NCBI GenBank assembly: GCA_950295325.1
Contig: OX485806.1
Location: 55,299,169-55,363,168, forward strand
DNA: 64,000 nucleotides
DNA from: Polytrichum commune
Taxonomy: Eukaryota > Streptophyta > Polytrichopsida > Polytrichales > Polytrichaceae
Direction of reading: 5' to 3'
Below the pieces are notes generated by a model, which searched no databases, was not told the origin of the DNA, and saw only the letters and a list, made by a program, of their open reading frames with translations. Position 1 is the first letter of the stretch. Each line of letters begins with the position of its first letter. A program made the position numbers and the translations under genes. Below are positions 6,546 to 63,155 of the stretch, piece after piece.

Positions 6546-6787
6546 GTTTTGGCAACACGATGATCAACACCATGGAAGTTCACCTTAGCCATTGGCTACC
6601 TACGAAGGGGAGAGTCCCGAATGCATGTGTAGGAGGGTTTGGTGACCTAGCCATGAGCTTGAAGGTCCGCGGTTTTGGGAGCTAACCATGCATGTGCGTG
6701 GGATGTGCAGGTTAGCGCTCGTGGCACTTGCTAGGTTGGAAAGGCGGTCAAGCTAGGTGAAGGAAAACTAGCAAGGGTTGCGACATA

Positions 6788-22747: not shown

Positions 22748-24939
22748 TGTTGAGTACAACATTACATCAAGAACAAGCAAGTGGAAGTAGGAAGAGGAAC
22801 ACCGAAATCTCAATCTAACATCAAAGACAAGCAAGTGGAAGTAGAAGAGGAACACCGAAATTCAAAGGAACGGTCGAAGAATGCACTTCGGAGGCGAAGT
22901 AACCTCGACCACGGTTATAGGGTCCACTGTCACGGATATACGAGGAAGTCCCGCGGTTATAGGGTCCCTTACCCACAGCAATGGGTCCCCAGCGGCTTAG
23001 TGTAGGAAAACCTAGAATTTAGAGATAGGGACTATTATGTAAGTATGAAAGGGCTTATATGAGGAGTATATAGGGGTATATAGGGATATTATGAAGTATG
23101 TAGAACTAGAATTCCATCCCGTTAGTATAAGTATATGGGATTTTGTCAAAGACAATTATGAAAGAAGAATATTAAGCAATTACGAGAAGTATAAGGACAT
23201 ATAGGAATATGGTACATTCTACTAGTATGATCATTGGAATTTAAATCAATCAATATGAAGATTTGATTGATTCTCAAAAAGGATTTGGAATGTAGCCATG
23301 ACAAAGATATAGTGGAATCTTATAAAGACAAACATTATAGTGGTAAAACGGTTATAACCGTTTATGATAGATATCATCTACCTATGTCGGAGATAGGTAG
23401 TTATCTAGGAAAGTGGAGTTAACAACCACTTTAGATATAGATTTTGGGTTAAGAAGAAAAGACTATATAAAGGGAGTAATTTTAGGAGACTACACCTCAT
23501 TTTCTACACAATGAAGTTATCACAAATTTGAGTGTCAACAACACTTGAGTTACTTTTGTATCTCTCCTCTTGGAGCTCTTTTGCAATACATTATCTTTTC
23601 CACAAATGTGTGTGTGACCTTTCTCTCTCTCTTTCTCAAATTGAACTACGAGTTGTCAATTGGTACTTGTGACTTAAGTGATTGATAAAACGAGAGGAGA
23701 GTAGGTGTTTTGAGAAAAAACTCAAAGTATTAGTGTGAGAGTGAGAACAAAGCGCTCAAGAATAGTTGGAGTATCAATGGAACTTTGAGAGAAGTTGTTA
23801 TGAGTAGTAACGTCAATTTAACTTGAACGTCGGAATTACAATTAACTCTAAAAAATAGAACTTATCATTAAACTCCTCAAAAGGGAATTATAAATATATA
23901 TGTGATTGTATGTTGAAGAATTATATGCATGTTATGGACGATTAAAGTAAATTTCTTAACGATTACAAACTCCTTCAAAAGAGGAGGAACTTATTATCAT
24001 AAACTACATAATTGACTTACAAGTATTATGCATATTATATTATATAACATATGTTTGAGTATCGAACTTATTTTATGATTAACAAGAATGATGAAGACAT
24101 TAATTTACATCAAAGTTTGAATCTATATGAATGAAATAATCTACTTACTACAATTGTTATTGAAACTTCTTTCTTTAAGTTTCTTTGTGAGTTGTTGGAT
24201 GTCATTACAATTTGAAGGATTATCTATTCAAGAGAAGATCTCTCTCTCTCTTGAGCAAAACTCAAGAGAGATAGGTAAACTTCTCGTCATCAAGAAATAC
24301 TTTGTAGTAAAAGTGTTTTTTCTCTTAAGATACTTTGTGAGTTGTTGGATGTCATTACAAGTGAAGGATCAACTATCAAAGAGAAGATTTCTCTCTCTTG
24401 AATAACTCAAAAGAGTTATAATTATTATCGTCATCAAGAAACACTTTGAACGTAACATTGCAAAACAATCAATGATGTGTTCATGAAATTATAACTACTA
24501 TATGCATACATGTCAAGTTACAATATTATAAGTAGTAACACTTGAGCTTAAAAAGGAAGACTCAAGAATATTAGATCTTCTTCATCATTATAAGATTACT
24601 ATCATTCGTGTGATTGATGTTTATGAACTACGAACCTTAAGGATTCATATAACTTATTGAAAACTATATTATTATCGAGGATATTGTTACACCTCTTGAA
24701 GCTTTCTTTAAATCTAATGGTTCTTAATGATGCCTTACATTGAGAGTAAGAATTAAGATAATGAGATTGTGTTCACTCCAATAATTATATTCATATCATA
24801 AGGAGAAGAGAGGGATTATTAATTTGAGACCGAACATATTAATGAGGCACGGTAGTTCTCAAGCGGATATAAATTTACATGATGTGCATCGTGAGTCTTC
24901 TTAGCTAATTTGCAAAGGAACGATCCACGGCGTCCATCA
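22748..24939 (+). mobile_element. LTR of gypsy element (2.19 kb), shared between two internal regions
   Basis: It begins TGTTGAGTACAACA and ends CGTCCATCA. It is preceded by a polypurine tract (as a 3' LTR would be) and followed by a primer binding site (as a 5' LTR would be). The full length is matched in inverted orientation by the solo LTR at 13341-15605, and this confirms both ends. The layout internal-LTR-internal is what remains of tandem elements that shared or recombined through an LTR. The LTR holds a TATA box at 23464 and many AT-rich stretches after 23800. Confidence 0.85.
23464..23471 (+). promoter_or_regulatory. Putative LTR promoter TATA box
   Basis: The motif tatataaa followed by ggga sits about 717 bp into the LTR, with CT-rich sequence downstream (23560-23640). 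This is a typical place for the U3/R promoter of a long LTR. The inverted solo LTR has a related, slightly altered sequence near 14810. The transcription start, about 30 bp downstream, is inferred. Confidence 0.5.
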
Positions 24940-31385: not shown

Positions 31386-33435
31386 CAGTCTAACCTTGAT
31401 AATATCACACCATCCGTTTCACCATAAAGTGTGATATAAACAAGGTGTGACATATTTGATAATGTCACATTTTGAAGATTTGTGCATAATGTGATATTAT
31501 CAAAAAAAAATAGGTAGAAAATCAAAATGAAATTACAATGTAAAAAAAAAAAAAAAAACAAACACAAGACTTCAATGTTTTTGAATGTAAAATATAATTC
31601 AAAATTGTGAATAACAACATGAGCACATCACAATGTGTCATTGAGATCAGGTAAAGACCTCTCACTAGAGACAAAGAAGCTTCTAATGTCACATTGTTTT
31701 AGTGATGTTAAATGTCCAACACCAATTCTAATGTGTTTGTCATGGATGTTTTCCATTCCTAACAACTCATGAGTGTTGAAAATCTGAGAACCTTGGCTAG
31801 CCATAAAATTCAAAACATCTTTAGCATATTTTTGTGCATCGCTTAGCTTCACTACTTTAGACTCATCATCATTGCTATTAACAATCAATGGGTATTCTTC
31901 CATGGAATCAAGTACATGTTCGCCATCTTGCACTAATTGCACAAGCTCCTCAATAGAATATTCCACCTCAAAATCATCTTCACCTTCCATGTTTATGTAC
32001 TCTAAAGGACTAAGCTTTTCTATAGGCTTGCCTTCAACATCCAAACCCAAATTCAATGCGGCGATGAGATTGCCCAATTCCAAAGCTGCTTCCTCCATTT
32101 TGGACTTCATACGTTCATCAGAATTGTTGATATCTGCATTCCACGCTGCAGGCAATATGGCAAACTTTCTCCAACAATTTCTAATGGTTTGATCATCTAA
32201 TTCATGCCATGCCGCCACACACCATAGCATTGCTTGAAATAGATCAACATTCAGTTTCCCCAAATCTTCATTTGAGTTATCAATTTGTTGCAAAGTCCAG
32301 GCAACAAGCTTGCGTTTATAGCACATTTTGAATGCTGCAATCACTCCTTGATCCAAAGGCTGAACAACTGAAGTCACATTTGGTGGAAGAAACAATATAG
32401 TGATATGGGAGAGTACAAAAGCATTAAATCCATCTATAACTTTTTTGACCTCACCATGAATATCATGGCTTCCTGCATTATCCATAATAATGCAAATTTT
32501 TCTATCTTGCAATGCCATTCTTCGGTTCTCACTCTTCACCCAATGTGTAAAAGCATCACCATTCATCCAGGCTGAATTGTTAGAATAATAGTGTACTATA
32601 CTATTTGGATCAAACTTCCGAGGAAAGCATCTGGGACGTGTTGATTTGTGAATGAAAACAAGCTTCAATCGCTCCTTCCCTGAGATATTAGTGCAAAGCC
32701 CCAATGTCACACGGTCCTTCTTTTTATTTCCTTTTGCCTTCCCAATATTCAAAGTCTTGCAAGGAGAGGCTTTATAATACAAACCTGTCTCATCAAAATT
32801 GAAGATGTCTTCAGGATCTTACTAGATTCTCCTATGCGACTATTGACTATAGAAACAGTGAAGACCGTGCCACATATCTTGAGATTTCTACATTGCAAAC
32901 CAATTGAACTAATTTAGCTTAAGTCGACACTACTCTGTACCAGCTCAGCTAAACCGTAGAACTTAACATCCTAAATTACTTCACACAAGCTGAAACCCTC
33001 AAAGACACATAGGTGAACACATGTGACGGAAGGTGGGGTGCATAGAGGCCAAGAAGTCTTGGCAGCGCCGTCAAAGACAACACCTTTGAGTGCCGTGTAT
33101 AGACAGCACCGTTCAGGGTTGGTGCACAGAGGCGGCTCATGACCCTTTGAATAACATTGCATTTATCACAGGGGTGGCTCATGACCCTTTTGGCTACTAC
33201 AATATGTCCATCCAACCATCACATACAATCCATACATCCAACCATCACATACAATCCATCCATATTTGATATTATCACATTTACACTAAGGATTTTGGAA
33301 AAAAAATAGTGACATTAACAAGGGTGATAGGGATAATAACGAGGGAGTTTTACACTAAGAAAATCGGTTTCAAACTTTTAGGTGACAGTATCAAGGTGTC
33401 CCATTAACAAGGGTGACATTATCAAGGTTAGACTG
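31386..33435 (-). mobile_element. pogo/Tigger DNA transposon with intact inverted ends
   Basis: The left end cagtctaaccttgataat and the right end attatcaaggttagactg are perfect inverted repeats of 18 bp, with further partial matching inward. Each end is flanked by TA (31384-31385 and 33436-33437), the target duplicated by Tc1/mariner/pogo elements. The enclosed transposase is on the minus strand. The element is about 2.05 kb. The region 32830-33400, where the N-terminal part should lie, has no matching frame but contains a 27-bp direct duplication (caaccatcacatacaatcca, about 33213 and 33240). Confidence 0.92.
31628..32825 (-). pseudogene. pogo/Tigger-type DDE transposase, N-terminus missing
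   Basis: The open frame covers 384 codons from 32782, and homology extends slightly upstream to FNFDETGLYY near 32810. Catalytic residues are visible: the first Asp in NFDETG, the second in IIMDNAGSHD, the third in QPLDQGV. This is a DDD triad of the DDE_1 (CENP-B/Tigger/pogo) family. TAG and TAA codons lie directly upstream of the NFDETG block, and I find no N-terminal helix-turn-helix DNA-binding domains. The catalytic half is uninterrupted, with an acidic C-terminal tail (EDDFEVEYSIEELVQLVQDGE). The gene normally excises and inserts the element; this copy is N-terminally truncated. Confidence 0.85.
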
Positions 33436-36591: not shown

Positions 36592-38112
36592 CTATTGTGA
36601 GCTTGTAGGGTCATCGCCGCTGTCTCCTTGTTGATGCCCTGAGCCACCCATAGACTGTTGGTCAGGGTTCAAGTTGCGACTATATGCATTCAAAGCTGCC
36701 AGCATTCCTAAGTGCCCTTCACCACCAAGGCCTAACCCAGTTGCTGGCATTTGTTGACCGCCTTGCTGCAATAACATAGAACCAAGCGGCATGTGATGAC
36801 CCAAATGACCCCCTTGAAGCTCTAGGCCCACACCTCCCTGTATGTTGATCCTAGGCATCAGTGTCACACCGCTAGGCAGTACTGACGCTGTCAAAGGTAC
36901 CATAGCCCCGCTGCTGCTGGAAGTCGGAGGATTACCTTGTCCACTCCCGCCGCCTCCTGGTCCCAACTGAATCGATGTCCCCGCCGGCGCAGCCATTCGA
37001 TACCCCCCTGATGGGAACGTCCAAATTTGCTGCTCCGACGGGCCAGACATAACTCCAGGGGTGGTCCCGCTTGCGCTCACCGGCAGCATCCAGATCGTCC
37101 CTGGCATAGCGCCACTGCTCGACACCCCCGCGACAGCAGGTGCCACTGCCCACATGGCTGGCATCAGGCTCGACGAACCACCTTGCTGTTGTTGTTGCTG
37201 CTGTCCTTGCTGCATCGATTGCCTTGCGGTAGCTCGAACGGGCCTCACCGGCTCTGGCTCCTCCTTTAATCGCCCTAGGGGCGCAGGCCCTCGTGGCCTT
37301 TTCCGCAACCTACTGTCGGAGGAATCCAATCCTTCGCCGACCTCTGAAGGGGCCCCCACCAGATCCTGGTGCTGAAACCCCGCCATCATGTCGTGGCTCA
37401 TTCCAGGATCACCATGCCCCAAGCCCATGCGCCGGCTGGCGTCCATAGCTCTAGTAGCATCCATCACTCGCTCCTCCGCACTCGCCCCCCAATCGCTCCT
37501 TCCCCGCTGCACCTGCTCCTGCATCCTCGCACTCTGCAAATCAGCTTCCGTTGGACCGCCGCCAGTGCCGGCCAGGCCTAAGCTGCCATGCAACACTGTT
37601 CTACCAGCCACTGCCACAGCCATGCTCGCTGAGCTCCTCAGCGGGCCTTGAATGGACGAGGCTAAGGCCGGGACCGTGCCGGTTCCTGTTGCAGCTATGA
37701 TTGACTGCTCTGCTTGTTGTAGCAGCCACTCGATAGTCTCACCATCCGATTTGTGACCAAGCTCACGAGTGAGCTGAAATATTCGTGCTGCACATGTCGC
37801 CGGCATCCGTATCCGCCTACCGCGACCATCGACTTTAGTGTGCCTATCCTTCGTAGAGGATCGCTTCGGTGGTTGCTTTTTTGCAGCGGTGGCTGCCACT
37901 GAAGCCTGCTGCTGTAAAGGTGGCTGCTCTCCTGAAACAACAGCCATCGGTTCCTGGTGACGGGTCATCGACATACTGCCCATACCGCCTACGCCCCCAC
38001 TAGATTGTCCCTCGCTGCCGTATTCCTGCCCCATACCCGCCATAGCTAACGTGGCGTCCACCTGCGAGGACCCTGGGCCGCCCCCTAACCCCTGTCCTCC
38101 CATTGACGCCAT
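36592..38112 (-). CDS. Class I (PCF-type) TCP transcription factor
   Basis: This is a single-exon frame of about 506 codons from the ATG at 38112; the frame is open further upstream, but only with non-ATG codons. Residues about 80-140 are a TCP domain: basic region [17 protein letters not shown], then [29 protein letters not shown] as helix-loop-helix. The basic region has the four-residue-shorter form of class I. The rest is low-complexity: Gly/Met/Ser-rich N-terminus, a Gln run ([10 protein letters not shown]) near the middle, basic KRPRGPAP and Gly-rich C-terminus. Class I TCPs are nuclear, bind GTGGGNCC-like sites as dimers and act on growth and cell division genes in plants. No stop, frameshift or transposon interrupts it; it is the one clear host gene here. 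The specific orthologue is not assigned. Confidence 0.95.
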
Positions 38113-39060
38113 TGCCTGTGCCAGCCGCCCTGCATTCAACCTTGATCCTTTGTGACTGTCACTGAATATGCAACTCTTACGACGTACAGGTGTACAGTTG
38201 CACCATGCGCTCCTGCTGTGACTCCTATTGTCGATGATGCACCTGCTACGGTTTCAATGCTCAGCCTGAGCCATCTTCCTTCACCCGAATCTTTCAACAA
38301 TAACTCCACTAATTTGTTATAATGTTCTTTCCGGCGACCTGCAAGTACTGTACCAGCATCTTACCATCACCTCCTGCCCACTTAACCATGAGACAAGAAA
38401 TCAATCAACCAATCCAGAGCCATTTCCAACCTCATAGAGACCCTTCAGTGCTTCCAGTTGTACAGCAGCAAGAGTACCTGCCCGCTAATCGCAAATAGCA
38501 CCATCACCCGGTCCCTAACCTCCTCCTCCTCCTCCTCATGCCGCTGCACGCGTCACCTTTCAGCCCTCACCTTGAAACTGACACAACAACAACTCGCTTG
38601 GTAAATGCTCCAACCTGCACTTTACCACCTAGAAAACCAGCAACCTAGTCGCAGCCTCCAATCATCCTGAAACCCTTCTCTGTCCTATAAATCCGTCATT
38701 GCCCATAGTCTTCCTCTCGCCCCTCTCTCCTACTCGTCAAGATCTTCTCCATCACACCCACCTCCACTCCTTGGATCCCTCGACATGCAAATGTTCGTCA
38801 CGACCCGTCTCTTGTCATGTCATCTTCATTCAAACATTTAGGAAAGTATCCCGTAATGAAGATGTCCATCGTCGAGCGCTGGATCTCGCCAAGCAATAGC
38901 GATAAGATGTCTCATCAAGCACCTGCTGTCGAGGGCGGGGGGGAGCGCGGATGCACCAGTAACTTAAGGGGTGGGGGGGTCCATTATTTGCTCTTCCCCC
39001 CAGCCCGTCCCCTTAACCCACAACCCCCCACCACGCCCCCCCCCCCGGGGCAGCTGGTGA
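38113..39060. other. TCP upstream region with simple repeats
   Basis: The 5' flank of the TCP gene is pyrimidine-rich on the plus strand. It contains a cctcctcct microsatellite at about 38520-38538 and a G/C-homopolymer stretch at 38930-39055, including a run of at least 12 C near 39040. No TATA element is convincingly placed on the minus strand. The open frames here are composition artefacts. Confidence 0.5.
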
Positions 39061-43289: not shown

Positions 43290-43721
43290 TGTCACGTGAG
43301 GCGACATCGGGGGCTAAGTCACGTCAAATTAGGAGTAAATGGACTCCACTAGGAGTCCATGTGTGTTTGGATGGATTATGGACTCCATTGGGAGTCCTAG
43401 TTAGTTGTTCATCCACTCCATGGATGAAATCCACATAGGATTGGGGTTATGTGGAGAGGAAGGCATCTTGACTTGCCATTGTTGTCAAGTCAAGTCTTGT
43501 GAGTGTGTTTTGAGAGAGAGAGATCTTGTTGTTGCTATCTTATGGCTATGGTGTAGTAGATCATGAGTAAAGCCTTTTCATTCTTTCTCCATCACTTGCA
43601 CTCTTGGATTCTCCCTTTGTGGAGTGAGAGATAGCTTGACTCTTGTGTGTGAATTTCAGAGTTTCTTAAGCATTGTAAGGAGACTTCTTAGTTTCTTGAG
43701 CTTGGAGAGAGAAACCCTCAT
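43290..43721 (+). repeat. Left LTR block of methyltransferase element
   Basis: It starts TGTCACGTGAGG and ends AAACCCTCA, and is matched by 52620-53052. About a dozen substitutions and one small GA-repeat length difference separate the copies. The flank to the left (ggggctaagggaaa) differs from that of the right copy. Confidence 0.85.
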
Positions 43722-44130
43722 ACTTGACAACAATTCGCTTATTTTTCATTTTTGGTTGTATTTCTGAGCTAGAATGGCCCAGTAGTGAGAGCAAATGAGT
43801 GATATAAGTGTATGAAAGCTTAGTTTGCAATTCCTTGCAACCCTCAAGAAGATTTTGAGCAAAATCTCCACATTTCTCTTTTGGTGTCTCTTTGTGTTTT
43901 CTTGAATTGTTGATGGTTGAATCTTGAGACCAAATGGAATCTCAAGTCACATCTTTCTTGCTTGCAAATTGTGGAAGCAAAGTTTAATTTTTTTCATTTA
44001 AAACAAACACAACAAAAAATAAAAATAAAAATCCGATTTGTTTTTAATTTTTTTTGAGCTCCGGACGGATCCGGAGCTCACCGGACCCTCTTGGAGCTCT
44101 TGCCAGAGCTGGGGCAGCCGTGTGCAGACC

Positions 44131-44148
44131 GGGCCGGGGGCGGGCGGG
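44131..44148 (+). other. Potential G-quadruplex in the 5' leader
   Basis: The 18 bases gggccgggggcgggcggg contain four G runs separated by loops of one or two bases. This is a strong match to the usual G-quadruplex pattern, in an otherwise AT-rich leader about 0.8 kb before the gag start. Confidence 0.6.
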
Positions 44149-44339
44149 CGCCAGCTAGGCCCTGGTAGGGGCCCATGTAAGCCTTCCTTTTTTATTTTTT
44201 TATTTTTTTATTTTTGTTTTTGTTTTCCAACATTACTTTTACCAAAATTTGTTTTACAATTACTTTTCACCTTTTTACATTTTTTTAAATTTTTACATTT
44301 TTACTTTCACCTTTCAAACTTGGCATTTAATTCTCACAA

Positions 44340-44785
44340 ACTTTGAGGTTCAAATTTGGGGGCATACTAGCTCCGATTGGAGTGAAATTTGAGCCTATAT
44401 TGTGTGAAATTTGCCAAAGAATCCAATGGTGTAATTGGATTGTTGATTGGAATTCAAAATCATTGCTGAAATTATTAATTTCAACGCTGATTTTTGTTTT
44501 TGGGAGCAAATTAACTCCGAACGGAGTGAAATTTGAGCCTAATTTGTGTGAAATCTTCCTAGGAGTCCATTGGTGCAATTAGTTTGTTGATTGGAGTCTA
44601 TAATCACCTTGGAAATTAACATTTTCAACGCTGATTTTTGTTTTTGGGAGCAAATTAACTCCAAACGGAGTGAAATTTGAGCCTAATTTGTGTGAAATCT
44701 TCCTAGGAATCCATTGGTGCAATTAGTTTGTTGATTGGAGTCCATAATTACCTTGGAAATTAACATTTTCAACGCTGGTTTTTTA
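44340..44785 (+). repeat. Three 144-bp tandem repeats in the leader
   Basis: The phrase ggagtgaaatttgagcct begins at 44379, 44523 and 44667, exactly 144 bp apart. Units also share gtgtgaaatcttcctagga-like and ttcaacgctg(a/g)ttttt segments. Units two and three are nearly identical and unit one is more diverged. Confidence 0.9.
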
Positions 44786-44943
44786 ATTTTAATTACCAAT
44801 CTCAAACCTTTGCACAGTTTTGGAATTCTGGGGGCCTAAATAAACACTTGGCATTTGGCAAGGGATTGCCATTTAGATAGCTAGCAACAGGTGCAGGTTG
44901 CCATTACCTTGTAGATAGTTTCCGGTACTCAAGTGATTATTTT

Positions 44944-46722
44944 ATGGTGCAAACTAGGAGCCGATATTATCGATCTCCATCACCAGATTACTTGGAGGAC
45001 GTGCATACCACAAATCTTGAGCCAGAGGTAGATACCAACGAGGCTTTTGAGCCTATTTCGGCGTTGGACATTACTAGTAGGCTTCGGATTTGGAGTGTTG
45101 GCACGTTCGACGAAATGGACGACGATCACCACGGTTCAGTGCGTGATCGGTTCTCAGGTCGAGCTTTGGGCATTTCCTTGCCCGATTGGAAACTCCGGTT
45201 CCGTACCTGGATTAAGGAGAAACGCCAAAGGTCTTCCAATTTCAATGATTGGTATGCCTTTGAACTTCTGCCTTAGCACTTGGAGTATGAGGCACTCCAA
45301 ACTTACGAACGCTGGACAGAGGGTCATCAGCGACAACTTCGGGAGGTGGAGCAGTATTGGGAGGCCCGGGTTGAGCTTATTTCAGCCTTTAAAGATGGGG
45401 CGATTGCCACCTTAGCTCCACTCACATTAAAGGAGGAGGATCCACCGGAGGAGTCTAAGGACAAAGAACTGACACTTGGGCCAATAGTGGCTGGCAGTAG
45501 CACGGCTACCCTTTCACGGATGGCACGTGCTACACAGGCAGCATTGACAGTTGTTGGTCCACCACCTCCATTTAATTCCCTTACTAAATTTGTCGCACAT
45601 TTGGAGGTGGGATATGGTGGATTTCGGCGAGACCAGATGCAGCGCATTCAGGATTTCTGCCGAGAGAAGGATGACATTCCACGGACCATGTATACGCGAC
45701 TCACACGCTTTGCTGTTGAGTCGGGAGGTGTTTTTGCTGAGAGTCAGCTTGTCAAAATCTTTTTGTCTAAGATTGACAAGTGGCTACTTGAGTTGGCATC
45801 ACCTCGGATTATCCTCGACTACGAAGCCAGAGCTACGCTTGCACAAGCGTTTGCCGTGGTTGAGAGATGTGATCGGGCTCTCTGTCAACACGATGCCACA
45901 GACATGGTATCTTGGATGACAGAGAGTACGAAATCAAGAAGAATTGTCACAGCTACTAGTACTTTAGCTGAGACTCAAACCGTTAAGGAGCAAAATATTT
46001 TGCATTGTTGGGGTTGTGGAGAAGTTGGTCATTCGAAGAATGATCCCAATTGTCCTAAGAAGAAGAAAACCTAGCTTTTGGGAAAATTAAAACAAAAGAT
46101 AGAACCTGTAAAGGCATGGGACAATTCTAAAAAGAGACAATTGAAATGTAACCATTGTGGTGGCACTAATCACAATGTGGATCATTGTTTCCAACTTCAT
46201 CCTGAGATGCGGCCTGCCAGTTATGTCACTGGAAAATCTCCAAGGGAGCAGAGTCTTGAGGCTAAGGTGGCAAAGTTTGAGCAAAAGCTCAAATCTTCTG
46301 CATCTTTTGCTCAAATTTCTGAGCCGCATGCGGATGGTGGCACCTTGGATTCGGACATGTATATGTTTGGGACATCTGGAGAGGTGGTGGCTGCGGCTTC
46401 TACTCGATCACAAACATTGGCAAATGCGGTGGCTTCTACAAGTGGTGGTAGCAACGAGGTGTCACATCCTCGCCATGCCGGACCAGTGGATCAAGTTGGT
46501 CAAGCACGTTTACCTCTTTCATTTGGATTGGTAGACACCACTGTTGTTGGGGCTAAAAACCATGTACCTTTGAGAGATGGGGATTCCATCTCGAAGGATA
46601 TTACGCAAGTAATGTCATATAAAATTCTCCATATGCCATTTTTCTCGGGTTCGGAGTTGATGGCTCCGGATTTCAAGCCTGTTGGAGTTTTCCATTTAGC
46701 TGGGAAAATGTTAGAATGTTAG
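44944..46722 (+). pseudogene. gag of the methyltransferase element
   Basis: It begins with ATG (MVQTRSRYY), a common start for plant gypsy gag, preceded by AT-rich leader. A central helical region at about 45280-45900 (CREKDDIPRTMYTRLTRFA) matches the capsid-like retrotransposon gag pattern. It is followed by two zinc knuckles, CWGCGEVGHSKNDPNC near 46009 (the last spacing is six rather than four residues) and CNHCGGTNHNVDHC near 46150. Stops lie at 45274 (TAG), 46072 (TAG) and 46720 (TAG) in one unbroken phase. Gag packages the RNA; the zinc knuckles bind nucleic acid. Confidence 0.85.
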
Positions 46723-46728
46723 GCGGAT

Positions 46729-47433
46729 TTGCCATCCCTTCAAGTATCCCAAGCTGTTGTTGACGTACCTGTGGCTGAGGAGGTGGAGGACTTAGCCAAT
46801 TTGCGAGTGAGCCTTGCGGATGCGGCGATCATTGCTTTTGGTAAGTACATTGATATTCCTCCATCAACAATTTCAGCCGTGGACACGTCATTTTCGAATT
46901 ATGCAGCGGGAGCGACATATCTTGCAGATATTTCTGCAAGGCCTGCTCACGAGCGGCATAATTTGCAACCTGGAGTTGTACGGCTGATGAACGACAAATC
47001 TTTGTTTGTCGTTTTACGCGCGGATATTCCTACTATTTGTGTTACACCACTGAGAGTTATGATGGATTCCGGTGCTCAACCGGTTATGATTGGCAAAGGA
47101 CTTGCTGACAATCTTGGATTGATGCCAGCAAACTTAAATCCTTGTCCATTCACAATTGTGACTTCAGTAAGGGGCATTGAACGTGCAACAGGTTACACCA
47201 AGGCACCTCTACGTTTGATTTTTAATGTGGGGGCAGGACCTACCTACACTCATTTGTCAATAAAATGTGTTATTTCTAATGCTACCAACTATGATATACT
47301 TGTTGGTTAGCAAGCTCTTCATCCACTTGGCTTTGGTTTGGATAATTGGACTGAAGAGGCATGAATTAGACCGGGATGGTCTTCTGGAGATGGCAAGAAG
47401 GTATTTATTCCTGTAGCATTTGCAGCTACTTCT
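46729..47433 (+). pseudogene. Aspartic protease region
   Basis: The motif VMMDSGAQPVMIGKGLADNLGL (about 47055-47120) is the D-S/T-G active site of retropepsins followed by the usual hydrophobic segment. NYDILVG near 47290 matches the second conserved block. This is one molecule of an obligate dimer that matures the polyprotein. Stops: TAG at 47308 and TGA at 47362, both in the same phase as gag. Confidence 0.8.
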
Positions 47434-48873
47434 ATGACTATGGTTGCGGAGGCAATGTTTGGTTGTAGCGGTTCAGTTGCGGATTTGCCTTGTGCTCCAG
47501 TTTTGTTGGAGGAAACATTGGACTACACTTGTAATGCAGCAGAACAACAAATTTTGCCATCTTTACAAATTTCTGCTCGGCATTTCAAGAATCCACCTCC
47601 ACCATGGTGTACCCCTAAGGAGTTATCCGACCATTGTCAACACATTGTAGCGGATTTGGGGCTTGGAGAGACACCTCCAACGTCATCCTCAATTTCTTTT
47701 GCTCAACCCATTCGTTGGCAACCACCACCTGAAGGTATTGTCCTTATGAAAATCTTTGGGGGCATTGGCACTGGTTTGGCGGCAATGTTGGAGGCTGGGA
47801 TTACAGTTAGGCGATATATTCATGTGGATAATGGATATGCAGCCAACAGAACCGTCTGACACCACATCCAACAATTGTTGTTGAGGTACCCCGCACAATT
47901 GTCAGCCTCTGCCATTCTTGGATGTTGTGGTCAACTTTCTCAAGATGTCACTATGACTAGTGATGAGGATTTGAGAAGATTGGGCCACATGGATTTAATT
48001 ATTGCAGGATGGCCTTGTCAAGGCCATTCACGGGCAGGAACTGGCCAGGGTTTGGATGATCCTAAGTCTAGTTTGTTCACGGATTTTATGCGATTGATAC
48101 AATGGTGGTTTACCCACCAATCAATTCCGCCATGGTACATTTTTTAAAATGTGCCATTATTGGGTGATACACGGTACAAAGTGGTGAAGGATGGTGAGTA
48201 CATTAACCAAATTCTAAGTACTCCAACATTTCTGGATGTTGCATCCTTGAGATCCTTTGCTTATCGGCCTCGTTGGTTTTGGACCAATTTGGTATCACCT
48301 CAGGTGCTTTCAGCGGCGATCGCCCGCATTCCCCACCTTATGAATCGCAAGGTGGATGACATTTTAGATGATCATCGTGTTTCTTTAGTAGTTACCAAGG
48401 ATGACACCTTGCCATTTGCATTAATTAACAAGGTGGGAATTCCGGGAGGTGCACTACCTATTTTTGTGGCATATCCACGGTTTTTTGCATTTCGATCTCG
48501 TGGACCAGGCATGGTTTGGGATTCAAAATCCCAAACTCATGATGAACCTACGGTAGATGAGCGGGAACGCGCCATAGGTTTTCCTACAGGCACCACGGCT
48601 GCTCATGGGCTTCAGGAAGGTCAGAGACGTTTCCTATTGGGACAAACTATGGATCTCAAAAGCATGGTGTGGATAATTGGTATTTGTCTTGCTGCTCAAC
48701 AACGTATGGATTACCAATTGCTTCCTCTGAGGGCAAAAAATAATGGTCAGGGGGTAATGGAGCCGCAATCCAAGGATCACATGGAGGTCAATGACACCGA
48801 GGGATTATTTTCTTTGAAACAACATGTTGCGGAAGAGATTCGAGCCCAACGTGTTTTTTCGGCTTTGGCCTAA
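47434..48873 (+). pseudogene. C5-cytosine DNA methyltransferase domain inside gag-pol
   Basis: Between protease and reverse transcriptase lies a methyltransferase in the usual motif order. Motif I (AdoMet binding): IFGGIGTGLAAMLEAG near 47750. Motif IV with the catalytic Cys: IIAGWPCQGHSRAGTGQGL, Cys codon 48016-48018, followed by DDPKSSLF. Motif VI should be an E-N-V triplet; here the codon before NV is TAA at 48145 (YIF-stop-NV). Motifs IX-X: DEPTVDERERAIGFPTGTT and RRFLLGQTMD near 48545-48660. The spacing of motifs I and IV resembles DNMT3/DRM-type enzymes more than DNMT1 or bacterial ones; the motif order is not rearranged as in plant DRM. Further stops: TGA at 47857, TAA at 48871. Such enzymes add methyl groups to cytosine in DNA. 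This copy is dead as it stands. Confidence 0.9.
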
Positions 48874-49053
48874 GATTTTGGGAAGTTGGAGGCCCATAAA
48901 ATGTTTCCACTTCTATTTCTTGGTGACACTTCATATGTGGGTAGCTATTTAGCTACGCAAACTGATTGTAGTGGAGAGGATACGCATTTGGATTCAAGTG
49001 CAGATGAAGGGGGCAAAGGTGTTGTCCTCTCCACGGACTAGCAATCACAGGTT

Positions 49054-50712
49054 GTGCTGGCACCAAGTGGCAATCCTTCTATGAAGAAGAAAACCACGGA
49101 GTTTGATGATTGGCCAATTGAAGTGGGGCCAAAACTTACTGGTGTCGAAGCACAAAAGGTACGGGCATTTATTCACTTTTACTGTAATTGTTTTGCCTTT
49201 AGTCTTCATGATCTTGTAGGATATAAAGGTAAACCTATTCGTATTCAACTCGAGGACGACCATCCTATTTTCAGACGGCCGTACAGACTTAGTACATCTG
49301 AAAGGTTGGGTGTTCAAACTTGATGTCAAGAATTATTGGCAGCGGAATTGATTGAACTCTCTAATGGAGAGTATGTTTGTGTCACGATTATGCCTTCAAA
49401 GAAAGATATCTTTGGCAACTGGACGGAAAAACGGATGTGTGGTGATTATCGTCCAGTCAACCGCAAGACCAAGTTGGATCGATATCCAATGCCGATGCCA
49501 GAGGAGTTGTTTGATGCACTGGGATTTGCTAGAATCTTCAACACCCTGGATTTGAGGTCTGGTTATTATCAATTACCTTTGTTGTTGGGTGATCGGGTGA
49601 AGACCGCATTTTGGGGAATTGATAAAGATGGCAAGGATCAACTTTATCATTGGAAATTTTTACCATTTGGTCTCAAGAATGCACCAGCTGAATTTTAGTG
49701 GGTGATGGACCAATTATTGGATGATTTACCGTTTGCTAGATGTTACATTGATGATGTTATCATCTTTAGTAATAGTCCACATGATCGTGTAAGACATTTG
49801 CAAGCGGTATTTGAACGACTACAACGGTGGGGACTCCGTTTACATCATGACAAATGTAAGTTTTTCTATGATCAATTGCCCTATTTAGGCCACATGATTG
49901 TTCCTGGCGGTCTTGGTGTGCAACAGGCGACGGTGGATGTTTTGCACAAAATTCCCGCACCTAATGATGTACCATGACTTCGGGCATTTCTAGGATTGGC
50001 AAATTATTATAGAAGGTTTGTCAAAAACTTTAGTTTGATTGCCAAACCTCTCACCATTCTCACGGGGAAAGACCAACCATGGATTTGGAGTCGGAAACAA
50101 CAACAGGCATTTGATACATTGAAGCAGAGGCTCGGTTCAGCGCTAGTGCTTCGACGTCCGGATGTGTCTAGAGCTTTTCAATTGCACACGGATTGAAGTG
50201 CAATAGGATTGGGAGCGGTATTGACACAGAAAAATGAAGAGGGAAAGGAATATGTGGTGGCTTATGCATCTAGAAGCAATAATAGGGCTGAATCTAATTA
50301 TTCTTCTTATGAAGGCGAGGCCTTGGCGGCCATTTGGGCCATTGCACATTTTCGACCTTATTTGTATGGGCAAAAATTTACTTTGGTGACTGATCATCAG
50401 CCTTTAAAATGGCTTATAGAATCAGATAAATTCACCGGGAAACTTGCTAGGTGGGCATTGTTACTTTAAGAATATGACTTTGAAGTTGTTCACCGAGCAG
50501 GAATTGCCAACTTGGATGCAGACGGATTGTCTCGCAATCCAAGTTCTTCAGATGAGGATTTAACTGGAGCCAGGTGGCATGGAGATTGTGATCGTGAGGC
50601 AGTGTCGGGTTGGCATGTTGCCACATATCTCACAATGATGTCGGGATTGGCTGCTGAGATCCTTGTGGAATAACAAAATGAGGAGGTTGATAAATATCTC
50701 GTTGTTAGTGAT
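49054..50712 (+). pseudogene. Reverse transcriptase and RNase H
   Basis: Reverse transcriptase blocks run in order: MCGDYRPVNRKTKLDRYPMP (about 49435), FNTLDLRSGYYQLPL (about 49535), WKFLPFGLKNAPAEF (about 49650), the catalytic YIDDVIIFS (about 49743) and HHDKCKFF (about 49845). The primer-grip/connection LRAFLGLANYYRRFVKNF is at 49978. RNase H follows with the first Asp in LHTD (about 50190), the Glu in YEGEALAAIWAI (about 50310) and the Asp in TDHQPLKWL (about 50390). Stops: TAG near 49039, TGA 49321, TAG 49696, TGA 49975, TGA 50194, TAA 50467, TAA 50671. All catalytic residues remain and no frameshift occurs. Confidence 0.92.
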
Positions 50713-52185
50713 GTGTGGAAAGACCAAGCCGTCTTGCACAAACTTCAACAAGGGATATTTCCTATTGGACTATCTGCTATGGAGCGAGATAGAGTTAGCC
50801 ATCGAATAACAAGGTTTCGTTGGGCAAATGGCTTGTTATTTCGTGTGTGGCCGAACGGAACGAGGCGCATCATTCCAAGGCCAGATCAAAGAGCTTCTTT
50901 AGTGCGGCAAGTGCACGATGAGCTTGGACATTTTGGAGTGCGAAGGACACACTCTATGTTGCCCAACCAATATTGGTGGACTGGTATGTATCAACAGGTT
51001 GCCACTTATGTTTCTAGGTGTGAAGTATGTGACCGGGTCAGGTCAAGTTTTAATACTTTATCACCTCAACTTCAACCTTTACCTATTATGGGCTTGGGAT
51101 ATTGTTGGTCTTTGGATTTTGCCGGACCGCTTACTATCACTCCACGTGGGACAAAGTATGTACTTGTGATGGTGGAGCATTTTATTAAGTGGATTGAACT
51201 CGTGGCTCTTCCCCAAAATTCCTCAGAATTGGCGGCTATGGCATTTCTTGATCGAGTTTTGACACGGTTTGGAGCACCTGCAGAGGTGTTGACGGATCAA
51301 GGGAGAGAATTTCTTGGATCTTTCGAGGTTTTGTGTACTAAGGCTTTGATTGATCATCGAACAACTTCCAGAGATCACCCTGAGGCAGATGGCTTAGCTG
51401 AACGAGTTGTTCAGACTATCAAGCGCGGTTTGCGGAAGTATGGGTTGTTTCATGGCAACCATCGCGATTGGGACTTGATATTATCATGGATATCAATGGA
51501 TTACCGTTTCAGCAGGCAAGCATCTTTGGCATCCTATAGTCCTTACCAACTCTTGTATGGACGGGAATCAATTTTACCTAGCTCTGTGCGAGAGAAATTG
51601 GCTCCTGTGGTAGACTTGGATGATCCAGATGTTTGGGCTCAATGTCTTCATGACCGAGCAAAATTCTTTCAAAAGGCCATGCCTATGGCCATGGAGAACT
51701 TAAATATAGCTCAACATCGTGATACATTACGGTATGCCCAGATCCGCAGTGGAGCTTATCGACCTCAGGTTCGTAGATTTTCCAAGGGGGATTATGTTTA
51801 CTTGCAACGGGAGGCGCCTACAACATTGGATGTCAAGGCTGGGCGCACAATTTTGCGGGTAAAAGATGTTTTACCACGTGGTATATTATTGCTTGAAGGC
51901 AAGGATGGACAGGAATGTCATGAGCATTCAAAGAATTGTGCTCCATGTCACCTTCCCATCGACGGCTCTGTGCATCCCGAGTTGGCGGTTGTACCACAGG
52001 GTCTGCCTTGTTATGTGTGTGGAGAGAAGAAAGGAGCTACAACAATGTTATTGTGCGACCATTGTCAACGTGGATGGCACATGGCATGTTTGACACCTCC
52101 CCTTTTGACTCTTCCTTCTGGCAATTGGGTTTGTCCTCGTTGTCGGAAAGCCTCCCACTCTATGGGTGTTAATGGTCATGATTGA
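50713..52185 (+). CDS. Integrase with C-terminal PHD finger
   Basis: This is an uninterrupted frame of 490 codons, the best-kept part of the polyprotein (TTG and ATG near the start are not real starts; it is the tail of the pol frame). It has an H-H-C-C zinc domain (HDELGHFG to CEVC, about residues 70-115), catalytic core with LDFAGP, VLTDQGREF and the Glu in ADGLAERVV, and a C-terminal beta-rich tail (RRFSKGDYVYLQRE). The last ~70 residues form a complete PHD finger, Cys4-His-Cys3: CYVCGE, LLCDHCQRGWHMAC and WVCPRC (about 52009-52150). PHD fingers read histone H3 tails. Chromodomains occupy this place in chromoviruses; a PHD there suggests chromatin-guided integration (inference). Confidence 0.92.
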   Translation: MWKDQAVLHKLQQGIFPIGLSAMERDRVSHRITRFRWANGLLFRVWPNGTRRIIPRPDQRASLVRQVHDELGHFGVRRTHSMLPNQYWWTGMYQQVATYVSRCEVCDRVRSSFNTLSPQLQPLPIMGLGYCWSLDFAGPLTITPRGTKYVLVMVEHFIKWIELVALPQNSSELAAMAFLDRVLTRFGAPAEVLTDQGREFLGSFEVLCTKALIDHRTTSRDHPEADGLAERVVQTIKRGLRKYGLFHGNHRDWDLILSWISMDYRFSRQASLASYSPYQLLYGRESILPSSVREKLAPVVDLDDPDVWAQCLHDRAKFFQKAMPMAMENLNIAQHRDTLRYAQIRSGAYRPQVRRFSKGDYVYLQREAPTTLDVKAGRTILRVKDVLPRGILLLEGKDGQECHEHSKNCAPCHLPIDGSVHPELAVVPQGLPCYVCGEKKGATTMLLCDHCQRGWHMACLTPPLLTLPSGNWVCPRCRKASHSMGVNGHD

Positions 52186-52510
52186 GGACTTTGTGGATGT
52201 TTGCCACATGTCTTAGTGGTGAAGTTGTCATCTGGTTGGTCGGAAGTTTTATGGGATTGAAAATCATATTGGGAGAGTTATCAAAGAATTCAACATAAAT
52301 TGTTGAAGGCGATTAAGGATGGGGCTCACATTGCACCCAGCCTATAGTTCTTGGGTTACTTCCTCAACCATGAATTTAATTCCTTAGATTACCACTATCC
52401 AATTGGATATGTACAGATGTAGCAACAACTTCATCATGTTCAACATCTCTACCGATGAGTGTGTTTGTTCCTAGCCGATTGGAGGGGCTCCTTATCTGCT
52501 AGGGGGGCAC
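52186..52510 (+). other. 3' non-coding region with candidate polypurine tract
   Basis: No gene is seen after the TGA at 52183. A purine-rich stretch ctaggggggca at about 52498-52509 is the best polypurine-tract candidate. It adjoins the first ~106-bp block, not the TGTCACGTG start, which puzzlingly lies 110 bp further on. Confidence 0.55.
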
Positions 52511-52511
52511 T

Positions 52512-53161
52512 TGAAGAGGTGGTTGTTTGGCATATTAGTTTGCTATGTTTATTTTGCTAATTGATGTTGATGACGACACTCGATCTGTTGTGTTTAACGA
52601 GCTTAGTTTACACGACAGCTGTCACGTGAGGCGACATCGGGGGCTAAGTCACGTCAAATTAGGAGTAAATGGACTCCATTAGGAATTCATGTGTGTTTGG
52701 ATGGATTATGGACTCCATTGGGAGTCCTAGTTAGTTGTTCATCCACTCCATGGATGAAATCCACATAGGATTGGGGTTATGTGGAGAGGAAGGCATCTTG
52801 ACTTGCCATTGTTGTCAAGTCAAGTCTTGTGAGTGTGTTTTGAGAGAGAGAGAGAGCTTGTTGTTGCTATCTTATGGCTATGGTGTAGTAGATCATGATT
52901 ATAGCCTTTGCATTCTTTCTCCATCATTTGCACTCTTGGATTCTCCCTTCGTGGAGTGAAAAATAGCTTGACTCTTGTGTGTGAATTTCAGAGTTTCTTA
53001 AGCTTTGTAAGGAGACTTCTTAGTTTCTTGAGCTTGGAGAGAGAAACCCTCATCTTGAAGAGGTGGTTGTTTGGCATATTAGTTTGCTATGTTTATTTTG
53101 CTAATTGATGTTGATGACGACACTCGATCTGTTGTGTTTAACGATCTTAGTTTACACGACA
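52512..53161 (+). repeat. Right end: block A - LTR block B - block A
   Basis: Block A (about 106 bp, tgaagaggtggttgtttggc to tttacacgaca) occurs at 52512-52617 and 53056-53161 with one visible mismatch. Block B (52620-53052) matches the left LTR block. The junction A-B contains the palindrome gacagctgtc at 52614-52623. TGTC at the start of B and GACA at the end of A are inverted repeats, like LTR termini. The left end of the element has B but no A. Confidence 0.85.
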
Positions 53162-59155: not shown

Positions 59156-62100
59156 CTAAGAGTCAAGGTACTTCAATAAACCAGCCTGCAAAACTTGCTT
59201 CACTTCGTTGAAGCTAAAACTAGCTGCATGAATGAACGTGTCTGAATCTGAGTCCAAACCACACAGTACAGTAAACAAATAGTACAAATGCTTACAGTTG
59301 GCCCATTGACCCCGTTTTCCAATTGCCTTAGTTGCCATCTCCTTGAAGTTAGGACAAGTGCATGCTAGTAGCTGCGAAATCGTCAAGTAGTATTGCTGAA
59401 CCTTTGGGGGCGTGCCGGAATCCAACGAGACTATGCATCCTAAGGCAGGGGCTGGAAGCATGCACAATTTGTGCACTTTGGCTTTCAGTGATAGGGCTGA
59501 GGCACAATTATTGGCGTATTTTGTTGACAGGGCCTTCTTGTTGCGCCTAATCAACTTCCCTGAACGCCGGGTGGGAAACTCATCCGGATATGCAGGTGTC
59601 GTGTAGCTTGCTAAGTCCAAAGGTAACGGATGGTCCTGAAAAATTTTGGAAGGTGTCATTTCCTTCCGCTGGGGCAGTCTAAATCCTACATTTTCTAAGG
59701 AGAGGATCTCTTTGCAGGTTAAGTTGGTCCCCAACTTAACCGGCCATACCTCCGGAACGTTCGGGATTGAGACCACCCATCTTCTTTTTGTCCCCTTAAC
59801 GCATCTCTCAATGTCGTCATTGCAGAAAAAAAAGTCTTGAGGGTCCAATCTCTTCTTCCGAAAGTTATCCATGAGGCCTGAGTAGGTAGGTGCAGCGGTG
59901 CTCTTCCCGTCTTGTACAATCCGAGCGACGCACTTCTTCTTGGTGATTGCTTGTAGAGCAAAGCAAGCCTTCGCAGATGTCTTAGGCAGCCGTGCGATGT
60001 GCCACTGGGCAGGGTTGCATAATGTCTCCTCAATCGCGGTGACGTGGTGTCGATCCACCTGCTGCGGAGCTACGTGTGTTGGAAGTTGCGGCTGCTTTTC
60101 ATCTGCGTTTGTGGGAGAATCTGGAATTGTCACAGGAGGTGGAGAATCGTCAAGTCGGGCAGATCTGGTTTAGACGCGAGGTCGGGATATACTGATTTTG
60201 TCTGGCCTGTGAGATTCATGTTCGTCACCTAAAGCAGTGTCTGGTTTACGCTTCATAGAAACAAATACCTCTTCCCCTTCGAGGTGGGGAGTCCTGGTGC
60301 ACCACTCGTCACCGCCAGGCATCTTCAAGATGGCCTCATGCAGCGGTTTCGATATTCCTGTTTTTGCGACAGACCTCTGAGCACGCCTCAGCTTCAATTC
60401 CTCCTTCGAGGGTCCAGTTCCAGGGTTGTCTCCCTTCAGGAATTGGGAATATGTTGAGCACTGCATGAAAGCACGCACGAAATCATCGACTGTTGCCACA
60501 TAAAGGTCGCTGCCTCGATCGCCGGATTGCTGCTTCCACTTGTTATGGATAGATTCAGCAAGGTTACAGGATGACATTTCCGCTAGTTCAGCTTCACTTA
60601 GATTCTGCAATGCCCATAGAGTTCGATTTAGGTTTTAGGGGATATCAATGTCGTTGAATTATAAAGAGTGAAATATATAGGAAAGGATTTGGCAAGTAGA
60701 GACTTAACAACTCCATAAATCCACCCTATTGGCGGTAACGGAAATGCCATAAGGCCAGCTAGAGCTCCAGTCGAGGTAGAGCTTGTTCAGTTGCTGCACC
60801 GGATGACATCCACCATGCCCGAATTGCCAGAAACTTTGTCTCTGCCTCCGCCATCGATTTCGCATTCTTGTATTGCTGGCATAGTATTCGATGTTGATAT
60901 TGCAGGTCTTGACGGATATCGGCCTTGGTATGTTTCTCCAAGGACTGCGTCCAATGGAAAAGACAAGTCCTCTCTTTGTCTACCATCTTCTCAGGCGCAT
61001 CTCCACTTCCGTATGTGATTCGAACAACATTCCAGTTGGCTTGGGCACTGTCGGCCATGAAACCCTTAAAATTTACTTTGTGCACTCCATGTTGAGCCAT
61101 GAGAGCGTTCAAGTTCTTCCACACGACTGACTGGGCAGCAACATCTTCAGACTGCATGTCGCATACTGCGATGGTCATGACACGGCAATATGTGGAATCG
61201 TACACATGGCAAGCCATTGTGGTCCACGACCTGACCCGTTTGACATGGTCAAACATTATCCACGAGTTCTCCAGGTCACCACCGGGCTACATTCGTTTGA
61301 CGAGGTCGACGCCGCTGCCCGACCCAACTTCAAACATCTTGAAGACAAAAACCTTGTCCATGTTCGCTCCTTGCCCTGGAAACCTATTCTGCTGCACGAA
61401 CCTCCAATTGCTAGCACCGCGTAACTTGGTAATACTGTCCATGACTCCAAAGCGACGCATAGTCCTAAACGTGGTAACTGCGTTACGAATGTTGGGTGAG
61501 GTTAGGTGGTTACACCGATCGAAAATAACTTGCAGCTCGTCCAACTCCAAGATCTTTTGTGGGTCACCTTCTTTAGCAAGGAGGAGTGGACCCAGTACTT
61601 CCTTTGCAGTTTCAAGCACAATAGCAGAGCGAGTGGCTGAGGGGGTGCGTTCGACTTGATCCCCAATCAAGCTGTCTGTCAAATCGATGAAGTCCCGATG
61701 TTCACCTGACTTCATGGGATGGTCATGAGATCCCAAGTGCACACAAGCCCTCGTCATGTGAGGTGTCCCAGTAACATAGTAGATCTTGGCAGTGCAGACA
61801 GCTACACAGGTGGGAGGGACATTACAGGATTTGCAAACAACTGTGGAACCAGCGGGAGGTTTGGACCCTAATTCAAACAATTTCTCAGATAATCCTTCCC
61901 ACTCTGTTTCATTCACTTTGGAAGTCCTGTGGTCTCGCTGAAGATACTCACAGGCATGATTGTCGCAACGGAGGTGGCCCAAACAAGAAGATGTACGAAA
62001 CAAAAGCTTGAGATCATTCTGAATATTGGATGTAATTGTGCGAGACCAAGCATGGCCATCGTACCTTCTGTCTATTCCTCGAAGCTGCTTGGCCTTTGTA

Positions 62101-62906
62101 ATCTGCCCATGGTCACCTACAGGTGGAAATTCGAAGATAACGTCCCCATCGTAACGAGGGGGAAGGTAATCAACTTGCTGGAGTCTGATCGCATCAAAGT
62201 TAATTCGAGACAACACACTTTTGGACCGCTTACGAGCTCCAAGACGCATCAAGGAATGAATGATACTGAGAGCAGGACTTGCCACAACCTTGGCCTGACC
62301 AGGATGACTAGAGGGACTAACAGGAGGAGTTCTTTCCTGGCGAACTGCTTCTGTAGAGAGCGAAGGTCGGACTTCACTATCTGACTTTAAAACTTCTACA
62401 TCGCCGTCGGAATCATCACTCAACTCATAAATTGTATTTAGACCGGGCTCAATTTTGACCTTGGACAACAACGGTCTCTCAATGCTAATAGTGGACGACT
62501 CCCTAGGTGTTAGAAGTTCAGTCGAACAATCAAACATAGACTCAGAGATTCCATATACGCGATATTTTCCAGGCTTCAGCAACCAGAACGAACCGTCATC
62601 ACTCTCAACTCTAGTATGACGAACTGCATGTGAAACTAGACCGGTATGATCATCAAAAACTTCTTCTTCGACAAAGATAGTGACCTCACGATACTGAAAC
62701 CTCAAACTCAAAGTTGCACAAGTGACTATAGCATGACCGTCTTCACTTAATGGAAAGAGGACCGGAATAGAATGAGATTCAGCACGAAGGAGGGCCATAG
62801 TGTACGACAGAACTCTGATCAAAACAAGTCCTCTGAACATTGAAATGGTGATAATATATAACAGGAAAGGAATTACAGAGCCAACTGGCAACTTATGTAC
62901 TAGCAA
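59156..62906 (-). pseudogene. MULE-like transposase with SWIM finger, copy 2 (nearly intact)
   Basis: Segments, 5' to 3' on the minus strand: 62906-61287 (an ATG near 62799, MALLRAESHSIPV, is the likely start of this exon), 61286-60759, an intron of roughly 100 bp, 60610-60170, and 60169-59156, all in phase apart from the intron. Domains: a novel-looking N-terminal region, an acidic ELSDDSDGD stretch, a Cys/His-rich domain (GHLRCDNHACEYLQRDH and CKSCNVPPTCVAVC), a transposase-like core (STYCRVMTIAVCDMQSE; FMADSAQANWNVV; CLFHWTQSLEKH), ESIHNKW, and a SWIM finger (CTC near 59365, CKH near 59290). In-frame stops: TAG 61287, TAG near 60762, TAG near 60737, TAA 60170; copy 1 has Gln or Trp codons where the comparison can be made. 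No frameshift is seen. MULE identity rests on SWIM, the core pattern and terminal repeats; I could not run a search. Confidence 0.7.
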
Positions 62907-63155
62907 GCGGAATTACAGATGTTAATAGAGAGTCATGCATAGGAAGATGAAAGACGGCTGAAAAACCAATTTTAGATGCAAGTGCGAGATATGCAAGATA
63001 CTGAATAGTAGAATCCTATAACAAGCAAACATACATTCTAAACATTGATGATTATAATATATATTGGCAAATAAGGTCATAAGAATGACGGTCGCCACGA
63101 ATACTGTGGAGAGCATGATAATAGGCATACAATAATAAATCCTAAACAATTGGGA

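Follow-up and report, generated by a model that had tools for sequence, protein, structure and literature searches.

Few transposons are known to carry the very enzyme by which such elements are silenced, a recognised paradox, and the locus described here raises the question of whether a cytosine DNA methyltransferase (MTase) is a working part of a retrotransposon and, if so, what it does there. The window, by which we mean the whole 64,000-nucleotide stretch analysed, had been predicted to hold a C5-cytosine MTase embedded in a Ty3/gypsy polyprotein. The region 47434-48873 is indeed that of a C5-cytosine MTase: motif I (FGGIGTG), the PCQ and residues of motifs IX-X are present, and the coordinates are right. 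It shares one reading frame (44944-52185) with gag, retropepsin, reverse transcriptase (RT), RNase H and integrase. This frame contains no frameshift and 16 in-frame stops including the terminal one; those at 47857, 48145 and 48871 fall inside 47434-48873, and one of them hits motif VI. The element as a whole spans 43290-53161, starts with TGTCACG and ends with CACGACA (Table 1). Its domain order is gag-protease-MTase-(TAG)-RT-RNase H-integrase-PHD, the place of the MTase between protease and RT being read from the window frame and the Pfam domains of an open copy. The Pfam domains also put the integrase after RT-RNase H, which is the Gypsy Pol order. Our best reading is that the window copy is a decayed member of an autonomous, recently active Ty3/gypsy-type family carrying a DNMT3-like C5-cytosine MTase. 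The gypsy-borne MTase of the original prediction thus stands; a plain LTR element does not, given the split repeats, and the window copy itself is dead. The PHD finger, the TAG with its particular context and the split repeats are additions to that prediction.

Table 1. Features of the element, in window coordinates.
Feature	Position	Strand	Remarks
Left target-site duplication GAAA	43286..43289	.	right side AAAA 53162-53165, one mismatch; by eye
Repeat A1, 5' terminal repeat, begins TGTCACG	43290..43721	+	96.6% identical to A2
Putative self-primer ATTGTTGTCAAGT, possible RNA 5' end	43478..43490	+	complementarity
Putative primer-binding site ACTTGACAACAAT	43722..43734	+	complementary to 43478-43490, 13 nt
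Leader: three tandem copies of 144-bp unit	44355..44786	+	
ORF1 frame Gag-protease-MTase	44944..49038	+	stop-broken here, open in some other copies
Gag: two CCHC zinc knuckles	46006..46188	+	by eye
Retropepsin, DSG motif	47035..47319	+	position from L031; E about 1e-3, below Pfam cut-off
C5-cytosine MTase domain	47686..48750	+	motif I ~47752, PCQ Cys 48016-48018, VI ~48145, X ~48640
Conserved TAG then CAATCA (CARYYA), probable readthrough stop	49039..49041	+	
ORF2 frame RT-RNase H-integrase-PHD	49042..52182	+	1047 aa where open
Reverse transcriptase	49423..49899	+	PF00078 1.2e-30; position from L031
RNase H	50161..50475	+	PF17917; position from L031
Integrase, H2C2 and rve core	50881..51381	+	
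PHD finger, C-terminus of ORF2	52009..52143	+	2e-10
Purine-rich tract GGGGGGCA directly before B1, possible plus-strand primer	52502..52509	+	by eye
Repeat B1	52510..52617	+	
B1-GC-A2 junction ACACGACA.GC.TGTCACG, palindromic core GACAGCTGTC	52610..52626	.	
Repeat A2	52620..53053	+	
Repeat B2, element end CACGACA	53054..53161	+	

The genome searched comprises 408 Mb, with the window on contig C4. A DNA search with the MTase span returned 304 candidates, of which 40 were scored; all 40 (the window included) reached 92% identity or more across almost the entire span. Searching with PF00145, for which 123 of 352 candidates were scored, gave at least 123 matches above the cut-off (the rows not all confirmed as elements), one of them being an exon of the host gene DRM. 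With the human DNMT3A sequence as query, 150 of 299 candidates were scored and at least 154 matches lay at E up to 10, the DRM exon again among them. The domain could have grouped only with a nearby host gene and been absent from other copies; instead, it recurs in 40 of 40 scored DNA matches, and the host DRM is a distinct gene on another contig. By eye, 26 of the 40 RT matches listed (window included) have an MTase match at the expected distance. The other 14 lack one at the expected place among the matches listed, so some copies may be without the MTase.

At least two element subfamilies exist, and B (L038, L042, L050, L053 and others) is 55–60% identical to A over the MTase. A third lineage (L086/L088) lies on contig CADCWO010000201.1 of a genome labelled uncultured Synechococcales cyanobacterium AVDCRST_MAG81, from a sample that we take to be soil crust. 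On the L086 contig, an ORF of at least 1162 aa leads to TAG-CAATCA and then to a 1047-aa ORF2 with a PHD finger; the B1-GC-A2 junction is the same too. Identity between A and this contig is 67% over the MTase, 72% over the protease, 87% over RT-RNase H, 96% over the integrase core and 87% over the PHD finger, with synonymous sites near saturation. B2 was not found in L088, where the contig continues past A2; we read this as A1 and A2 having been collapsed in assembly. PF00145 has a single match in the AVDCRST_MAG81 genome (3 candidates), which is the element's own, and we infer that a eukaryote contig was binned with the cyanobacterium. The same position of the MTase in two subfamilies and in this second organism led us to reject a host gene or an assembly error next to the element as the explanation; nothing was found in its favour, and we give it almost no credence.

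Many MTase-bearing copies are present in the same genome, at least one with both ORFs open. The 30 loci retrieved with MTase DNA include the window; in ten of them the MTase span is free of stops and the frame stays open to the conserved TAG, loci with indels giving false stop counts in this sample. One of five 9,991-base loci is fully open, with an ORF1 of 1386 aa and an ORF2 of 1047 aa; in a second, ORF2 is open and the ORF1 frame, at 1356 aa, starts 30 codons later. A1 and A2 are 99.6–99.7% identical in these two open loci over the 270–367 bases of A1 covered, compared with 96.6% in the window, and by this high identity in the open loci the family is judged to be recently active.

Selection was examined by comparing one A copy with four B copies. 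The MTase core gave w of 0.11–0.15 (dS ~1.9–2.6), the linker behind it 0.44–0.70 and the RT 0.07–0.08. Since dS is near saturation between the subfamilies, the MTase value is only rough, but it points to purifying selection, and hence to a gypsy-borne MTase that has been kept. Close pairs gave higher values (0.32–0.80 within A, 0.23–0.51 within B), as expected when fresh copies decay neutrally. Many copies are broken and w reaches 0.23–0.80 between close copies, as might be seen if the MTase were a functionless passenger captured by chance. However, with motifs I, IV, VI, VIII and X conserved in almost every one of ten sequences, which had been selected for open frames, and with the low w across deep splits between subfamilies, we consider this very improbable and have rejected it.

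What kind of MTase is this? Pfam at 1e-3 gave no match for the stop-broken MTase pieces of the window copy. The corresponding part of an open copy, extended to the TAG, matched PF00145 at 5.1e-12 and human DNMT3A at 1.1e-7. The motifs run in linear order I to X, as in DNMT3 enzymes. Across the same ten open-frame sequences PCQG and FENV do not vary at all, and there is almost no variation in most of motif I or in the HRPRW.WTN, RERAMGF and QRRF.LGQ.MDL blocks. In a profile search of the PDB the best solved relatives were DNMT3A, DNMT3B and DNMT3C (1.4e-12 to 7.8e-10), followed by HaeIII (6.3e-7), HhaI, DRM (2e-5 and weaker) and DNMT2 (0.002); no row among the 58 with E up to 10 bore the name DNMT1 or CMT. 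Structure comparison with a poor model (mean pLDDT 51.9) placed DNMT3 chains in all of the best 50 listed, over ~340–380 columns. Motif IV, however, is AGWPCQG, with PCQ where DNMT3 has PCN, and its stretch is at least as close to the Dcm-type enzymes of Streptomyces and phages (40% over ~100 residues, compared with 28% over 194 to DNMT3A). Similarly, in a small tree DNMT3A joins host DRM, apart from the element MTase, on partial rows (166 residues of DNMT3A, only an exon of DRM, L083) and with one, L084, in the wrong frame. Profile and structure therefore favour DNMT3, whereas motif IV and the small tree point elsewhere, and DNMT3-like is the best label for what appears to be a weak kinship. 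Pfam found no ADD/PWWP or DUF3444 companion domain in ORF1, the PHD finger sitting on ORF2. Such companions are ADD/PWWP in animal DNMT3 and DUF3444 in non-flowering plants, and protist and algal DNMT3 are described as also lacking one in the available text of PMC12344493. A scan of viral contigs gave six weak matches, and those read in frame look prokaryotic. As a separate observation, a stretch like AGWPCQG..GLDDPRSGL is common to the element MTase and Streptomyces/phage-type C5 MTases (L080, L081, L082, L085, L087).

The host DRM exon matches DRM2 at 5.6e-52, and a single open frame at 36595-38253 (-), ~5 kb from the element, contains a TCP transcription factor domain (PF03634, 5e-29). On the strength of these two sequences the host is a streptophyte. 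Together with an assembly in which seven long contigs account for nearly all of the 408 Mb, they suggest a moss or another non-seed plant; mosses such as Polytrichum have n=7. The DRM exon was the only host gene that could be named among the matches listed in the DNMT3A protein search of this genome, and neither MET1 nor CMT stood out among them; as the search probably misses intron-rich host genes, such an absence means nothing. Two DUF3444 genes with the same split (C3:16542330-16544030 and C7:13466216-13467627) may be host DNMT3 genes, given that Physcomitrella DNMT3 carries DUF3444 according to the available text of PMC6453930.

Other repeats were noted in the window. Inverted arms at 13397-14848 and 23431-24885 are 79–95% complementary and lie ~8.6–11 kb apart, with retroelement-like ORFs between them, one of which is integrase-like (16914-18255, by eye). 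A 139-bp tandem repeat occupies 6786-7919, where seven 300-nt copies are spaced at 139-base steps. A 396-aa open stretch at 31631-32818 (-) resembles, by eye, a Tigger/pogo-type transposase. The ORF sets at 8132-10177 (+) and 59159-62912 (-) are related, with peptide stretches in common by eye, and probably belong to one transposon family.

Compared with 15 other copies, the window copy has 93 private changes, and C>T or G>A accounts for 67 of them. These hit 13 of 196 CG, 15 of 202 CHG and 39 of 1055 CHH sites, so that the rate per site in CG and CHG is about double that in CHH. A methylated plant transposon would be expected to decay in this way, and the pattern is silent on which enzyme methylated it. 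Since the copy appears to have been methylated in the past, self-marking, if real, does not keep copies unsilenced. The MTase might instead serve self-restraint, marking new insertions for immediate host silencing so that less damage to the host preserves the family, an idea listed in the Discussion of PMC5890265. The presence of DRM in the host and the deamination-like decay are in keeping with this. However, copies are many and some are recent, and silencing of the plant type, carried out by host enzymes, accounts for the decay with no contribution from the element MTase. We therefore regard self-restraint as doubtful.

At the junction between MTase and RT, TAG followed by CARYYA is present in 30/30 A loci, window included (the L014 row is one base out of register, its letters agreeing), with CAATCA, CAACCA or CAATTA as the hexamer. 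All four B loci, chosen for an open MTase frame, have TAG-CAATTA, and there the preceding residues differ from those of A. CARYYA follows only one of the 16 window stops, the TAG at 49039, compared with 6 of 2434 codons in an open copy. The replicase of TMV likewise has UAG then CARYYA; CAR YYA after UAG is essential for TMV readthrough, readthrough of this type amounts to 32% in TMV and 11% in BNYVV, and candidate readthrough has been described for gypsy elements of rice (RIRE2) (PMC2754532). In contrast to both TMV and RIRE2, the stop here comes after an MTase and has both protease and MTase upstream of it. By analogy, TAG-CARYYA is probably a programmed readthrough stop that would leave the MTase on the abundant Gag-Pro side. 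Its conservation in all three lineages, in every copy checked, is a feature new to us. We consider it the strongest new point because it bears on where, and at what dose, the MTase is made: the stop would fix the dose of MTase relative to Pol, an argument that is itself new to us, and a location on the Gag side favours a role in the particle over one in the nucleus.

This location also bears on the possibility that the MTase modifies RNA, or the DNA of the host or of competitors (as a defence against other elements or viruses, for instance), and not the element's own cDNA. An antiviral role has been proposed for transposon methylases (PMC6338049), and RNA methylation has been considered for SymbioLINE (PMC5890265). 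Against this, a place in the Gag-Pro product would bring the enzyme together with its own cDNA, and its best structural kin are the DNA enzymes DNMT3, with DNMT2 far behind. We judge a target other than the element's own cDNA to be unlikely.

We then consider how such cDNA would be made and integrated. The repeats are arranged A1...B1-GC-A2-B2, a DIRS-like order, in five of six sequences (window, L031, L033, L034, L035). Neither the B-A-B set nor the B1-GC-A2 junction was found in L032; the junction is identical in L031, L034, L035 and L088 and has one change in L033. Plain LTRs were rejected because the piece beyond the right repeat, present in five of the six sequences (window plus five fetched loci), is element sequence. 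Target duplications were sought in ten copies, L027 and the 3′ end of L030 not being found. By eye, 4-bp duplications are exact in 6 of the 8 copies with both ends read and have one mismatch in the window and L017. As the duplications lie outside A1 and B2, these two repeats are the integration ends.

Just after A1, ACTTGACAACAAT is the exact complement of ATTGTTGTCAAGT inside A. The pair measures 13–16 nt in five sequences, its place fixed by the end of A1, and was matched in 0 of 500 mononucleotide shuffles for each. In L088 the pair, whose place was found by looking, is 13 nt long, has two compensatory differences and still pairs. No binding site for tRNA-Met turned up in the four sequences searched for one. 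These data suggest a putative self-priming site next to the 5′ repeat, and its halves, which covary in a second organism, are a feature new to us. Self-priming is described for Tf1/Sushi and the plant Tcn1 chromoviruses, Tcn1 being limited among plants to mosses and club-mosses (PMC6317226).

Given the purine tract and the priming site, reverse transcription by the usual rules would produce a repeat B-GC-A, yet integrated copies run from A at the left end to B at the right. This integrated form would result if the cDNA ends were joined into a circle that was then cut at GACA-GC-TGTC. It would also result from end repair on the internal junction, of the kind proposed for DIRS-type elements. Ngaro has split direct repeats, A1-[ORFs]-B1A2B2, as found here, but with a tyrosine recombinase (PMC8547959); our element instead has an rve integrase and a 4-bp target duplication, and Pfam found no tyrosine recombinase family in it. 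To our knowledge, Ngaro and PAT (DIRS order) lack target-site duplications, and the exact duplications in six of eight copies set the element apart from them. Split repeats, 4-bp target duplications and an rve integrase together are a combination new to us, and the junction data bear on the kinship of LTR-type and DIRS-type retrotransposons.

The integrase itself ends in a PHD finger. The 67-residue tail of ORF2 matches, among the best 60 of 102, the PHD fingers of CHD4, PHF12, PHF21A, KAT6A, lid, ATXR5, UHRF1 and AIRE. The PHD finger is present in subfamily A and in L088, the two whose 3′ parts were covered. Many such PHD fingers read the H3 tail unmethylated at K4. Pfam found no chromodomain after the integrase on ORF2, where Tf1/Sushi/Tcn1 elements have one; the PHD finger stands there instead and may have a targeting role in its place. 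A PHD finger ending an integrase is new to us. No report of one in a gypsy polyprotein was found among the literature matches listed, in a coverage mostly without subscription papers, and the words methyltransferase and PHD are absent from the available main text of the PMC6317226 survey.

The explanation that we favour, at a probability of roughly 0.55, combines a leaky stop, self-priming, an MTase that marks its own cDNA in the particle, integration through the junction and PHD targeting. Most ribosomes would stop at the TAG, giving MTase in Gag-like amounts that enters the particle, and readthrough would supply the Pol enzymes. The RNA 5′ end would prime first-strand synthesis at the site just after A1. 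The MTase would then methylate the finished double-stranded cDNA, probably at CG, and the methylated new copies would look like host DNA or be shielded until integration. The cDNA ends would be joined or restored, integrase would act at the GACA-GC-TGTC junction to produce the permuted integrated form, and the PHD finger would guide integration to nucleosomes that share one state of histone H3. Each of the PHD finger, the purine tract and the circle step may play the part proposed for it. A more specific joint reading, which we advance tentatively and think less likely than not, is of a self-priming gypsy family of non-seed plants with a virus-type leaky stop, in which the Gag-Pro MTase methylates cDNA in the particle, the rve integrase acts at a palindrome, GACA-GC-TGTC, that lies within the terminal repeat, as it would on a circle, rather than at the ends made by reverse transcription, and the PHD finger replaces a chromodomain in guiding the element on chromatin.

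Precedents for a retrotransposon-borne MTase had been named for dinoflagellates and a charophyte, and both are reported in PMC5890265; retrotransposon DNMT3 in streptophytes and dinoflagellates is also mentioned in PMC12344493. The dinoflagellate SymbioDIRS-Dnmt3 and SymbioLINE-Dnmt likewise carry a C5 MTase, CG methylation having been shown for SymbioDIRS enzymes (PMC5890265), but these are DIRS or LINE elements, whereas ours is a gypsy element with an rve integrase. The closest described system is KnitGypsy-Dnmt3 of the alga Klebsormidium nitens, published in 2018, which has a gypsy domain set, DIRS-like repeats and, in its Pol ORF, a Dnmt3-related MTase that lacks introns and is under purifying selection (PMC5890265). 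We group our element with it because the Figure 4 legend there gives repeats as in DIRS and gypsy domains, both of which match. Here, an in-frame stop separates the MTase from the RT, the MTase remaining in the polyprotein frame. Moreover, the host is different, and readthrough stop, PHD finger, self-priming and target duplication go unmentioned for KnitGypsy-Dnmt3 in the available text of PMC5890265. The kind of element thus appears to be already known, as likened by description, and the novelty lies in the added features.

Among the literature matches listed, subscription papers being mostly outside coverage, none was found to describe a gypsy element with an MTase in a land plant. Transposons with DNA methylases are stated to be absent from land plants such as tracheophytes in the available text of PMC6338049; if the host is a land plant, this statement would need narrowing. 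The family is abundant, partly intact and recently active, and offers testable parts in a defined stop, a covarying priming site and clear integration ends. If the joint reading is true, it would represent a replication cycle that mixes those of DIRS-type and LTR-type elements and has persisted in at least two hosts.
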